A stretch of 31,892 nucleotides of DNA, taken from a virus. Position 1 is the stretch's first letter; each line of letters begins with the position of its first letter. The position numbers and the translations under genes were made by a program. Shown in pieces: positions 203-31,892 of this stretch. The stretch spans positions 1 through 31,892 of the IMG/VR virus record IMGVR_UViG_3300029951_000085. The stretch is one strand, 5' to 3'. Under the pieces are notes generated by a model. It saw only the letters and a list, made by a program, of their open reading frames with translations, was not told the origin of the DNA and searched no databases.

Positions 203-1267
203 ATGTTGACGGCATATCGGAGGCATCGCGCAGACTGTAAGCACCGTTCCCGGCGCTACAAGGCGTGTTCCTGCCCGATATGGGCGCAAGGCGTCCTCCA
301 CGGTGCTCCGCTGCGCCGGTCGCTCGATCTCACAAGCTGGGAAGCGGCGGCGAAGAAAATCCGTGATCTCGAAATCCACGGGGACGTTCGCGTGTACTCC
401 GTAGCGGAGGCGGTCAAGCGGTTCCTCGCTGATCGCGAAGCGATGAAATTGAGCCGCGCGATGATGAGCAAATACAAGAATGTCGCGGCAGAACTCACGG
501 AAGAATTGGGTGAATTACCCGTCCGTTCCGTCCTCGCTGACGACGTTCGGAAGCTCCGGGAATCGTGGAAACTCGCGCCAGTCACCTCGCAAAAGCGTCT
601 TGAGATGGTGCGGAAATTCTTCTCGTTCTGCCTGGACTCGGATTGGATCGGCAAGAATCCCACGAAAGCGGTGAAATCTCCGGTCGTAAATTACGAGCCG
701 ACGATGCCATATTCGGATGAGGAGATGGAGAAAATCGTGTGGGCGGCGGAGTCAATTCGCATCGCCCATCCGAAAATGCCGGACGATTCGCCGAAGCGAT
801 TGCTGGCCCTGATTCTCCTCATGCGCTACTCCGGTCTGCGGATTTCGGACGCCGTGATGTTCAAACAAGGAACATTGAAGGACGGGAATCTGCTCGTCCG
901 GCAACGCAAGACAAAGCAGCCAGTGTGGGTTCCCCTGCCGCAAAAAGTTCTCGATGCGCTGAAGGAATGCGAGATGACGAACGGCTATTACTTCTACGCT
1001 GGGACTGGCAAGCCAGAAACGTGCGTCAAGGAATGGGGCGACCGGTTCAAGAAGGTGTATATCATGGCCGGGATTCCTGACGGCCATTCGCACCGGCTAC
1101 GGGATACATTCGCAGTTGATCTCCTCGTCCATAACGTACCGCTTGAAATCGTCTCAATCCTCCTTGGACATGCCTCAATCAAGACCACTGAGAAGCATTA
1201 CGCGCCGTGGATCAAGTCCCGCCAGATCGCTTTAGAGACTGCTGTGCGCCTCACCTGGGCTGCTTAG
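203..1267 (+). CDS. int: phage tyrosine recombinase (integrase), Cys/His-rich N-terminus
   Basis: A 354-residue site-specific recombinase expected to integrate and excise the element at the tRNA-Leu. The C-terminal catalytic domain shows the family residues: Arg213 in SGLRISD, His297-x-x-Arg300 in HSHRLRDTF, His323 in LGHASIKTTEKHY, and the nucleophile Tyr333. A core-binding SAM-like domain spans roughly residues 65-155. The first 30 residues carry C12, H14, C22 and C24 in a basic context, a possible zinc-binding arm that I associate with acidobacterial integrases (from memory). The ATG at 203 was chosen; a TTG at 185 is in frame and would add six residues. The stop codon overlaps by three bases the stop of the convergent gene at 1264-2109. 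No excisionase is recognisable nearby. Confidence 0.93.
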   Translation: MLTAYRRHRADCKHRSRRYKACSCPIWAQGVLHGAPLRRSLDLTSWEAAAKKIRDLEIHGDVRVYSVAEAVKRFLADREAMKLSRAMMSKYKNVAAELTEELGELPVRSVLADDVRKLRESWKLAPVTSQKRLEMVRKFFSFCLDSDWIGKNPTKAVKSPVVNYEPTMPYSDEEMEKIVWAAESIRIAHPKMPDDSPKRLLALILLMRYSGLRISDAVMFKQGTLKDGNLLVRQRKTKQPVWVPLPQKVLDALKECEMTNGYYFYAGTGKPETCVKEWGDRFKKVYIMAGIPDGHSHRLRDTFAVDLLVHNVPLEIVSILLGHASIKTTEKHYAPWIKSRQIALETAVRLTWAA

Positions 1268-2109
1268 TGGTGTGGGTGAAAGGACTGGAGAACATGCGTA
1301 ATGTCCTGCGCGATCTCAGCAGTTATCGCAGTTCTGGCCGCTGCTGTGAGAGTCGTCTTCATTGAATTAAGACAGGCCGAGACGATTCCGGGCTTCGGTT
1401 TTGTGGCAACAAGCTGCGGCTCGATGGTTTGAATATCGGTCCTAAGTTCTTCCCGCTCTCCCTCCGTAAGCTGAAGTTCGTCCATATTGCTCTTGATTTT
1501 TTCGACTATAGCTCTCACGTCCTGGGCATTGAATGTCACCGTCGCTTGGGAGTGGGATGTGCCAACTTGTATGACGGAGCCTGTCACGTCGCCAAAACTC
1601 ATGCTCGATGGCGTCGCGTGATTCATTGCTTGATCGCGTTTCACGAGTGCATTGATGATGACGGTCCGGTCTATACCGTGAGCGTCGCCGTAGCCGCCGA
1701 TTTTATATTCATGAGCGAGTGCTTCCAATTCGCCGTCTGTAAGTTTCCAATAATCAACTGGCACGGTCGTCGCCTTCCCTGAATTCATCTTTGACTGGAG
1801 GGCTTGGACATAGTGCCACAGCCCATCAATGGTTCGGTTGTATGTTGCGTCGTCGCAGTATGGCCTATCCGAATAGACTTTTTTCGGATTCGGATTTCGA
1901 TACGTTGCACGTTGGGAGCTGATTAGGCGGGGTTTCAGAGCTTGCCAAGGAATTTGAAACTCGCTGAATGATTCATTGGTCGCGCTCTCGAACGCCTCGA
2001 CGACCGCATGGTATTCATCCACATGTTCCAACTTGATCCAACCGGGATGATTGGCGCGGAGTCCTTGAAGGCGAGCGACCGCTTTTGCCCATTTCGTTTC
2101 GTCGAACAT
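1264..2109 (-). CDS. hypothetical protein with AbiTii-like C-terminal region
   Basis: A 281-residue protein next to the integrase, convergent with it and overlapping its stop by three bases. Residues from about 165 onward run GDVTGSVIQVGTSHSQATV, then a predicted long helix with ELQLTEGEREELRTDIQTIE, then PQLVATKPKPGIVSACLNSM. That order (Gly/Ser-rich strand, amphipathic helix, KPKPxIV segment, terminal helix) is what I recall from the C-termini of AbiTii-type abortive-infection proteins and relatives in Acidobacteriota. No catalytic motif is seen. The place, between the integrase and the rest of the phage, is typical for defence or conversion genes. The function is inference; the open reading frame itself is solid. 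Confidence 0.72.
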   Translation of the reverse strand: MFDETKWAKAVARLQGLRANHPGWIKLEHVDEYHAVVEAFESATNESFSEFQIPWQALKPRLISSQRATYRNPNPKKVYSDRPYCDDATYNRTIDGLWHYVQALQSKMNSGKATTVPVDYWKLTDGELEALAHEYKIGGYGDAHGIDRTVIINALVKRDQAMNHATPSSMSFGDVTGSVIQVGTSHSQATVTFNAQDVRAIVEKIKSNMDELQLTEGEREELRTDIQTIEPQLVATKPKPGIVSACLNSMKTTLTAAARTAITAEIAQDITHVLQSFHPHH

Positions 2110-2608
2110 TCCGCCATTCTACTGCTGACGAGATATTCGATTTGAGGTTCTTTATTTACGTTTTAGATTCGGATATGACCCCCCCTACCCCCCATTGATT
2201 TTCGAAAATTTCGAAATCGGAAATCGGGAAGGTCGGGAGGCCGGTCTTATCCACGTTTTGAGTTCGGACAGGGATTTAGCTCCCCTGCAAGCTGACCAGA
2301 ACGACTGTTTATAGCCTGTCGTTGGATACCCCTCGGCTGTTCGGATGATTCCCTGAAAGCTGGAGTGGATTGGTGTGGGTTTAGCGCGCTCGCCTCAATT
2401 CAGCCACCGATACTTTACTTCTCGCCATCACAGCGATATTCCCCGTTGACGCCTAGAGGACAATCCACCTTAGAAAAATGATTAGTCTTTCTTCCAGCTT
2501 TCAAAGAACCACCGCTGTGATTCGCTGGTGGCGGAGCGCACTACTTTCGCCTACTGATCTTCGGCGATGTTTCGAGCGTCCTCTTGCGCGCCCCCATCAA
2601 CGAACCAC
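2110..2608. other. gene-free, repeat-rich stretch
   Basis: No convincing coding sequence on either strand. Visible elements are: two overlapping palindromes sharing TTCGAA cores (ATTTTCGAAAAT at 2198-2209 and ATTTCGAAAT at 2208-2217); an imperfect direct repeat ACGTTTTAGATTCGGAT at 2158-2174 and ACGTTTTGAGTTCGGAC at 2253-2269; small hairpins CAGGG/CCCTG (2269-2287) and AACGAC/GTCGTT (2300-2323); and a G-rich leftward run near 2180-2193. These could be integrase arm sites, operators or part of a structured RNA; the sequence does not decide. Confidence 0.5.
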
Positions 2609-2609
2609 G

Positions 2610-2702
2610 AAAACAAAAACGCTTTCAACTTGCTACCAGTAGACCTCGCGGGAGAACTGACAGCAATGTGAAAGCGTGCGAGGTCTTTGCCGATATGAAG
2701 TT
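2610..2702 (-). ncRNA. candidate small RNA: long hairpin with a loop pseudoknot and U-rich end
   Basis: Read leftward from the promoter at 2709-2736. The 9-nt arm AGACCTCGC (2686-2678) is followed directly by ACGCTTTCA (2677-2669), which pairs perfectly with TGAAAGCGT (2627-2619). Inside that stem, TTGCTGTCAGT pairs over 11 positions (two G-U pairs) with ACTGGTAGCAA. The 15-nt loop holds GCGAGGTCT (2649-2641), the exact complement of the first arm, so the fold is a pseudoknot. The stem is followed by TTTTTGTTTT, like an intrinsic terminator. An alternative is the remnant of a small gene, since one leftward frame is open here for 49 codons without a start codon. Confidence 0.35.
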
Positions 2703-2708
2703 ATCCTA

Positions 2709-2736
2709 AGCATAGGAAACCTACAGCGGGCGTCAA
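2709..2736 (-). promoter_or_regulatory. sigma70-like promoter, leftward
   Basis: On the minus strand TTGACG (2736-2731), a 16-base spacer, then TATGCT (2714-2709). It fires into the structured gene-free stretch and its predicted start is near 2702. Seven bases upstream lies one of the four copies of the recurring 11-mer (2744-2754). Confidence 0.5.
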
Positions 2737-2743
2737 GGCGTTC

Positions 2744-2754
2744 TGGGGATAACT
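2744..2754 (-). promoter_or_regulatory. recurring 11-mer AGTTATCCCCA, copy 1
   Basis: Plus-strand TGGGGATAACT directly after the stop codon of the 2754-3041 gene and seven bases upstream of the leftward promoter TTGACG. Three more copies occur, all read in the same direction. One base away from the DnaA-box consensus TTATCCACA. Confidence 0.45.
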
Positions 2755-3041
2755 TAGCGGCGGTAGAGTCGCAAGAGGTCTCCAATGCGATTCACAACTA
2801 TCTGCTGATCGCCGTGTAACCGTACACGGGTGAGGCCGCCAAGTAATTCGTGAGTGGGATCGTCAGGGTCCGGCTCCCAGCTGACTTCTTCCTCCCATAG
2901 CCGATCTAGCAACTTCCTGTCACGCCATAGGTCAATTTGCTCGAATGCGTAGTATCCGCCAACTGCGATCAACATTTTCCACGTAGGCAGATGGAGAAAG
3001 AGCGCCGCTATGAAGATAAGGAAGTAGATGCGTAATTTCAT
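2754..3041 (-). CDS. small membrane-anchored protein
   Basis: A 95-residue protein not recognised from any family. Residues 3-32 are hydrophobic (one long or two short helices) and the rest is a charged cytoplasmic-type tail with an acidic run EEEVSWEPDPDDP near residues 50-62. A good Shine-Dalgarno site, AGAGGTG, lies five bases before the ATG. It is the last gene of a small leftward cluster with the 49-residue gene upstream. A role in lysis or superinfection control is possible from its position, but nothing in the sequence shows it. Confidence 0.7.
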   Translation of the reverse strand: MKLRIYFLIFIAALFLHLPTWKMLIAVGGYYAFEQIDLWRDRKLLDRLWEEEVSWEPDPDDPTHELLGGLTRVRLHGDQQIVVNRIGDLLRLYRR

Positions 3042-3562: not shown

Positions 3563-4021
3563 TCATTCTCGGGGTTTCGGTAGAAGTCCAGTGATGAAGG
3601 CACATGACCAGTGCGATAAGAGTCCGTTACTGATTGCCCAATCTGCCATTTGGATTGCGTCGGCGGGATATATCGGACTGCCTTTTATACCGCTCGATTG
3701 GGAGAACGACTCCCACGTTCCGCCCTTCAACGTGTTCGCTGGCCCCCGATGAAATTGCAATATTCCATCCGAAAATATGTTGTCGGAGTCTACGCGCGAA
3801 ATATTTCTTCCCGAGCTTTCGCATTGAATGAGTTTTTCGATGTCGTTTACGTTGGTGACCTTGAAGGGGACGGTATATGCCCAGCCTTTGCCCTCTAGCG
3901 TCGTGCTAGAGGCGCTTATTTGAGCTGAGACGGCAATGACGCGGCTCGGCGCTAAAGCGAGCGTACAGGTCAAAATTAGGGCAATTGAGGGGTATGTAAT
4001 GCAAAGGAGGTAGTGTTTCAA
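3563..4021 (-). CDS. secreted lysozyme-like / transglycosylase-like protein
   Basis: A 152-residue protein with an N-terminal signal peptide (hydrophobic residues 4-24, then a small-residue region near 28-36). The second half has the arrangement of a transglycosylase-like fold: IEKLIQCESSGRN with the candidate catalytic Glu68, then SDGILQFH (84-91), TWESF, and DAIQMADWAISNGL. Such enzymes cleave peptidoglycan glycan strands. It could be the phage endolysin, exported by its signal peptide, or a virion muralytic enzyme. The start is TTG at 4021: an in-frame TAA lies two codons upstream and there is no clear Shine-Dalgarno site. Its leader holds three perfect hairpins. Confidence 0.78.
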   Translation of the reverse strand: MKHYLLCITYPSIALILTCTLALAPSRVIAVSAQISASSTTLEGKGWAYTVPFKVTNVNDIEKLIQCESSGRNISRVDSDNIFSDGILQFHRGPANTLKGGTWESFSQSSGIKGSPIYPADAIQMADWAISNGLLSHWSCAFITGLLPKPRE

Positions 4022-31223: not shown

Positions 31224-31892
31224 TTACTTGGTTTGAGCGACGAACGTATCGAGCCATTCAAGAACGATCTTTGATACCGGGTTATTATCCGGCGTATCTC
31301 CGGGCTTGATGCCCATAAAGAAGCGCTCTGCCGGTCGGCTGGAGTTCGGGCGCAAGTTTCCTTCAAGGCTGTCTACGGCGCATTTGCGAGCCTTGGCAAT
31401 GGTGCCAACGAGACACGCACAATCACCGGCGTAGACAGAGCCGTTTATCTTGCCGTCAACGATAGCCATCCGGAGTGCTTTGATCTCCCGGTGTGCAAAG
31501 AGAAGCACGGACCAGAAATCGTTACGGATGTCATTGAGGTCGGCGGAACGGAGGTCGGCGGAACGGAGGTCGGCGGAACGGAGGTGGGCGGAACGGAGGT
31601 TGGCGGAACTGAGGTTGGCGGAACTGAGGTCGGCGTAACTGAGGTCGGCGTAACTGAGGTCGGCGGAACGGAGGTCGGCGGAACTGAGGTCGGCGTAACT
31701 GAGGTCGGCGGAACGGAGGTCGGCGGAACGGAGGTCGGCGGAACGGAGGTCGGCGGAACGGAGGTCGGCGGAACGGAGGTTGGCGGAACTGAGGTCGGCG
31801 GAACGGAGGTCGGCGGAACTGAGGTCGGCGGAACTGAGGTCGGCGGACGCCTTGATCGCCGCTTCGACTGCAATCTTCCAACTCTCTGCTTC
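31224..31892 (-). CDS. pentapeptide-repeat protein (start beyond the window)
   Basis: The leftward frame with codons at positions divisible by three is open from the window edge to TAA at 31224. It encodes ESWKIAVEAAIKA, then 21 tandem pentapeptides of the type (R/S/T)SADL or SANL (31536-31850), then NDIRNDFWSVLLFAHREIKA and a globular C-terminal domain of about 90 residues with three Cys (DCACL, KCAV). A(D/N)LxX repeats fold into a right-handed quadrilateral helix, often a DNA mimic or targeting element. Other leftward frames give Pro/Thr/Ser/Val or Phe/Arg/Pro repeats and are artefacts of the 15-bp repeat. The N-terminus is missing. Confidence 0.87.
   Translation of the reverse strand, partial: EAESWKIAVEAAIKASADLSSADLSSADLRSADLSSANLRSADLRSADLRSADLRSADLRSADLSYADLSSADLRSADLSYADLSYADLSSANLSSANLRSAHLRSADLRSADLRSADLNDIRNDFWSVLLFAHREIKALRMAIVDGKINGSVYAGDCACLVGTIAKARKCAVDSLEGNLRPNSSRPAERFFMGIKPGDTPDNNPVSKIVLEWLDTFVAQTK
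31536..31850 (-). repeat. 21 tandem copies of a 15-bp unit
   Basis: Plus-strand unit GAGGTCGGCGGAACG with variants at positions 6, 11 and 15, repeated 21 times without interruption. It encodes the pentapeptides of the gene above. The near identity at DNA level shows recent expansion or homogenisation. Confidence 0.95.

Follow-up and report, generated by a model that had tools for sequence, protein, structure and literature searches.

In the window, the complete 31,892-base IMG/VR virus record IMGVR_UViG_3300029951_000085 from an uncultivated phage, we identified a minus-strand element reaching from a promoter to a U tract, which we named P1. It probably works as a built-in genetic switch; to the reading that it would act in cis as a transcription attenuator we assign a probability of roughly 0.6. 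This reading was chosen because transcripts ending before the 3' arm b' of the stem are predicted to fold mostly as an antiterminator and full-length transcripts mostly as a terminator beside the U tract. Both pairings, their covariation, their incompatibility through shared bases, the recurrence of the promoter and the synteny were all obtained by computation.

The window encodes a tRNA-Leu (38-126), a tyrosine integrase (185-1267) and, on the minus strand, terminase, capsid and tail genes. P1 lies in the 644-base gap between the minus-strand genes 2754-3041 and 1264-2109, directly 3' of the former, which is the last late gene. P1 may play a role in the lysis-lysogeny decision or in integration, as suggested in a preliminary description of this DNA; it is located between the late genes and the convergent integrase. 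For the two neighbouring genes no relatives were found in IMG/VR, and blastn of the whole region against phages and plasmids gave nothing useful. At the right end of the record a gene for a pentapeptide-repeat protein is open (31224-31892, minus strand). This record probably lacks the early region and attR.

Two perfect 9-bp inverted repeats, 2619-2627/2669-2677 (ACGCTTTCA/TGAAAGCGT) and 2641-2649/2678-2686 (AGACCTCGC/GCGAGGTCT), interleave within 68 bases, as the preliminary description had stated. The inner helix of 11 bp named there (2656-2666/2630-2640) includes two G-U pairs. Pairing of the loop with the sequence 5' of the stem, also described there with the strand left unclear, holds for the 9 nt immediately 5' of the stem and on the minus-strand reading only. 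On this strand the promoter is followed by the segments a, b, a' and b' and by the U tract (TTTTGTTTT, 2618-2610), which adjoins the 3' side of the stem; the promoter, the U-rich tract and the predicted transcript of about 93 nt were thus recovered as described before. The putative antiterminator is composed of the outer 5' strand d (UAUCGG, 2690-2695), the 5' strand a (AGACCUCGC, 2678-2686) and their partners d' (CUGGUA, 2634-2639) and a' (GCGAGGUCU, 2641-2649), the latter being a perfect complement of a within the terminator loop. The terminator stem is built from the lower arms b1 (2669-2677) and b1' (2619-2627) and the upper arms b2 (2656-2666) and b2' (2630-2640). Compared with shuffled sequences, P1 folds better on the minus strand (z=-3.8) than on the plus strand (z=-2.2), and the same was observed for the whole 644-base gap (z -4.75 and -2.53).

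The promoter (TTGACG-16-TATGCT, 2736-2709) matches the consensus at 9/12 positions, and from its sequence a start near 2702 is expected. A spacing of 16 nt scored best in 12 of 13 homologues, with modest scores of 7-10 of 12 in the individual phages; in L261 the best-scoring site is out of register with the others. Upstream of it the box GTTATCCCCAG (2743-2753, minus strand) was found, which we take to resemble a DnaA box. Its consensus [GC]TT[ATG]TCC[CA]CA recurs in 12 of 13 homologues, in most of them 17-21 nt before the -35 region. This box and the nearby integrase would fit a recombination or replication site with repeats acting as DNA, but the G-U pairs, the strand-specific U tract, the orientation of the promoter and the better fold of the minus strand make such an element hardly probable at all. 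A late-operon intrinsic terminator and nothing more, its flank being complementary by chance, would explain the stem and U tract directly after the last late gene. It is very unlikely, however, as gene 2754-3041 and the stem are separated by a recurring promoter and box, and as the complementarity of flank and loop is conserved and covarying.

Taken on its own, the pattern in the window is only moderately unlikely by chance. Per 298 terminator hairpins 0.11 flank:loop matches of at least 9 nt are expected, and one promoter match of 9/12 was observed against 0.6 expected. Counts of flank:loop matches of at least 8 nt showed no clear enrichment over shifted flanks; only longer matches combined with homology did. 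The pattern becomes convincing through its conservation, with covariation, at this position in 12 more phages.

A terminase search yielded 80 IMG/VR loci, and a search with the whole record gave a single relative, G004, which has the promoter region and the downstream hairpin H2 in common with the window. Further relatives were obtained with a degenerate H2 pattern. In L137 and L227 the neighbourhood agrees with that of the window (integrase, DUF932 gene, gene 3563-4021), and L137 carries P1 with both strands of each helix changed. P1 was found again in a blind scan for the structure a, b, complement of a and complement of b, and alignment of DUF932 provided 18 loci. Altogether P1 was detected in 13 phages, the window and 12 other IMG/VR contigs, 2-6 kb downstream of the DUF932 gene. 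Since several of them are near relatives (e.g. L262 and L264), they do not represent 13 independent events. The order d-a-b-a'-d'-b'-U tract is common to all 13, and a U-rich tract follows the stem in every homologue. Two subtypes were distinguished. In subtype 1 (window, L260=L137, L253, L255, L261) a' lies inside the loop of a stem of 20-22 bp. In subtype 2 (L252, L254, L256, L258, L259, L262, L264=L227, L267) a short hairpin a:a' has b as its loop, and b' is preceded by an additional hairpin. L257 has a variant form. A translated gene across this stretch, named in the preliminary description as evidence against an RNA, was not seen: there is no conserved reading frame across the homologues, the core of 68-75 nt differs in length by non-multiples of 3 and the changes are compensatory.

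A search for the exact motif AGACCTCGCACGCTTTCA gave no matches. Matches of the motif TTCGTTGATGGGGGC were mostly due to chance, and six of them were permuted tmRNAs of other phages, unrelated to P1. Permuted tmRNA genes with tags ending in ALAA are located on the IMG/VR contigs L099, L104, L106, L108, L114 and L126. Two distant terminase relatives, L033 (about 1213-1305, minus strand) and L071 (453-530, plus strand), possess an independent a-b-a'-b' terminator with a U tract leading directly into the ATG of the next gene. These could be attenuators of the same kind as P1.

Compensatory changes in both helices, which the preliminary description had proposed to look for, were found in the five closest forms. 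In a hand alignment of the five subtype-1 sequences, where the counts depend on anchoring the segments at the point at which they meet b, 45/45 cells pair in a:a' with double changes at all nine positions, and 45/45 cells pair in b1:b1' with double changes at 5/9 positions. For b2:b2' (four sequences) 43/44 cells pair and 5/11 positions are doubly changed; the whole stem thus has 88/89 standard pairs. For d:d' (three sequences) the values are 18/18 and 1/6. The subtype-1 pairing statistics are partly circular, because the scan for this subtype demanded matches of a:a' and b:b'; subtype 2 was found by hairpin and U tract alone.

The hand-set segments and an alignment-free partner-swap test were used because MAFFT misaligns the variable loop. 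With 12 phages, none of 200,000 permutations reached the cognate energy total for flank and loop, and for the stem arms likewise none of 200,000 was at or below the cognate energy; in an upstream control region 19,360 of 200,000 did so. Subtype 1 alone gave the smallest value possible with five sequences, all five flanks favouring their own loop. For subtype 2 alone, 902 of 200,000 permutations were counted, a weaker antiterminator signal. Against shuffled flanks, each subtype-1 flank was significant (p 0.001-0.007); in subtype 2, p<0.05 was obtained for 2/8 members, and the flanks of L252, L254, L256, L259, L262 and L264 were not significant one by one. The mean z of 122 other terminator-like control hairpins was -0.22, and P1 differed from them in the Mann-Whitney test (p 1.5e-5), as did subtype 2 (p 0.004).

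Folding with RNAfold points to two alternative states. Transcripts cut before b' adopt the antiterminator with d:d' and a:a' in the window, L260, L253, L255 and most of subtype 2, including L254, L256 and L258; the truncated transcript of L261 does not. The full-length fold is the long b:b' hairpin (>20 bp) beside the U tract in the window, L260, L255, L261, L252, L256, L259, L262, L264 and L267, and in L253, L254 and L258 its minimum remains the antiterminator. In the window the terminator likewise draws on d' (2634-2639), as a stretch of its upper arm b2'. Antiterminator and terminator therefore compete, since the bases of d' are common to both.

The preliminary description had combined both helices into one pseudoknot, and this part was not supported as it had been put: segment a touches the base of the 22-bp stem with a linker of 0 nt, and the predicted folds of truncated and full-length transcripts are two different states. 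As no linker separates a from the stem, the full pseudoknot presumably cannot form in one molecule. A discrete small RNA acting as a pseudoknotted structure would account for the promoter, the U tract, the length of about 93 nt and the covariation of both helices. We regard it as unlikely, given the missing linker and the use of d' in both folds, which is expected of alternatives and not of one structure. That the RNA is discrete holds insofar as the U tract ends it; conservation and structure also extend into the sequence past it. In agreement with the preliminary description, no known RNA was recognized: covariance models of Rfam gave only chance-level matches for P1 in the window, L137, L253 and L255, so that P1 is absent from Rfam 15, and with ARAGORN and Rfam no tRNA or tmRNA was detected over P1, the tRNA-Leu at 38-126 being the only one in the window.

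Three features of an attenuator are present in P1. A GC-containing stem is followed by a U tract, an alternative pairing upstream is incompatible with the terminator and uses some of its bases (weaker in subtype 2), and a promoter, judged from its sequence only, lies upstream at leader distance. Accepting the attenuator reading, RNA polymerase would initiate near 2702 on the minus strand. The antiterminator would form first, when a' and d' emerge, by pairing of d and a (2695-2678) with a' and d' (2649-2634). After synthesis of b1' the long terminator hairpin b1b2:b2'b1' could arise against the U tract, sharing d' and excluding the antiterminator. Either an RNA of about 93 nt would be released, or transcription would read through into an array of H2, the hairpin H3 and conserved blocks, heading to gene 1264-2109 and antisense to the integrase. 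A protein, an RNA or the speed of the polymerase are candidate triggers, and the direction of switching we infer from the folds. Effects on the integrase or on lysogeny may follow. No conserved sensor domain was seen and no leader peptide was recognized.

The leading rival is a trans-acting immunity RNA similar to P4 CI, which could coexist with an attenuator in cis. The released RNA of about 93 nt would capture nascent a via a', block the antiterminator and force termination, with self-limitation and immunity to like phages as the outcome. In P4, CI RNA pairs with complements upstream and downstream of its own coding segment, and transcription ends prematurely as a result (PMC4825925). Consistent with such a role, the released terminator form leaves most of a and of a' unpaired, a:a' varies between phages and is perfect in five, P1 is situated in the integrase-side control region, and the loop of the short RNA is complementary to leader sequence in the window and the other subtype-1 phages. 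On the other hand, pairing in cis suffices to explain the covariation, and in subtype 2 the terminator form hides a' and d'. We consider this rival rather unlikely and prefer the attenuator in cis.

Downstream of P1 a largely non-coding stretch was observed in several phages. The convergent integrase comes next in 11 of 14 contigs compared, with its far end at a distance of 0.5-3 kb. Blocks of 80-97% identity, common to subsets of the phages, alternate with unrelated stretches and with long hairpins having constant arms (GUUCUUUGAA.../...UCAGAGAGC and the H2 arms) around inserts that match nothing else compared. The window contains one H2, one H3 and one conserved block (2242-2338, minus strand; 89% identity to L259 over 98 nt). 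H2 (2518-2607, minus strand; fold z=-5.4) has the constant arms TGGTTCGTTGATGGGGG and CCACCAGCGAATCA and a variable insert; its arms are identical in L116, L137, L138, L206, L222, L227 and L245. In L116 (4107-4183), L138, L206, L222 and L245, H2 stands directly after a promoter as an early-operon leader, and a AAAGGTCG box follows it in each of these five. The box found upstream of the P1 promoter also precedes the H2-leader promoter in four of them (L116, L138, L222, L245). A tRNA-like nature of H2 was considered, as L137 has a T-arm-like hairpin and ...CCCCCACCA, and was rejected: ARAGORN and Rfam reported no tRNA and the other inserts do not fit. H3 (2346-2521, minus strand) has arms of the GUUCUUUGAAAGCUGGA family at 2493-2511 and 2346-2364 and a second 9-bp pairing (2513-2521/2427-2435). 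Hairpins of the H3 family (GUUCUUUGAA.../...UCAGAGAGC) with unique inserts occur in L253 (two), L254, L258, L259, L260 and L267 (two), where they alternate with four kinds of conserved non-coding block. We know of no obvious counterpart of such hairpins, and their constant arms and unique inserts need explaining. That P1 governs a phage-borne non-coding RNA array serving as an RNA weapon, decoy or immunity system that diversifies, with the attenuator as the on/off control setting its specificity, perhaps through a:a' in trans, is a doubtful proposal. Equally tentative is the corresponding view of the array as conserved scaffold blocks holding constant-arm hairpins with hypervariable inserts of about 40-290 nt.

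The host was approached with the DUF932 protein. Its best relatives from bacterial genomes belong to Acidobacteriota (55-59% identity, 3 of 297 genomes); in the phylum of an Opitutaceae genome identity was at most 34%. P1 was not found around the relatives in Acidobacteriota. This phylum is a candidate host only. The scaffold block was not present in 396 Acidobacteriota genomes, and no convincing bacterial copy of the H2 arms was detected in GTDB contigs. At the integrase end of relatives a tmRNA fragment or a tRNA-Sec gene was observed (L137 9476-9609; L138 13435-13525), which suggests that attachment sites vary among them.

If the attenuator reading is true, an uncultivated family of integrase-bearing phages decides on transcription of a non-coding region by a two-state RNA terminator beside the integrase. 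Control at this point would then be exerted by RNA, in a manner known best from P4-like elements. There are 13 examples of P1, five of them with both states well supported by compensatory changes. Attenuators as such are already known (PMC2965389); P1 matches no described family among those tested, and the downstream array may be more novel than the switch. The ornate RNAs GOLLD and ROOL (PMC12286853) are likewise large structured non-coding RNAs, found in part in phages; from these, P1 and its array differ by the lack of an Rfam match and by modular hairpins with unique inserts instead of one conserved large fold. The put RNA of the temperate phage HK022 (PMC9378689), compared by description only, is likewise promoter-proximal and structured, as is H2 right after the early promoter in related phages; unlike P1, put suppresses termination via RNA polymerase and has no two-state terminator. 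With P4 CI and the c4 immunity RNAs of P1 and P7 (PMC4825925, PMC12197685), the element P1 has in common a short leader RNA in a control region and a loop complementary to a flank. In contrast to these, a strong intrinsic terminator is predicted and the partner is the directly adjacent 5' flank. Bacterial attenuators and riboswitch expression platforms are terminator-antiterminator pairs, surveyed in PMC2965389. P1 deviates from them in that the terminator's 5' arm in the window lies inside the antiterminator loop, in the lack of a recognized sensor domain or leader peptide, in the largely non-coding downstream region and in its position in a phage integrase region. It resembles them in being a leader RNA whose antiterminator and intrinsic terminator have bases in common and exclude each other, and in a sequence that drifts fast while the pairing is kept.
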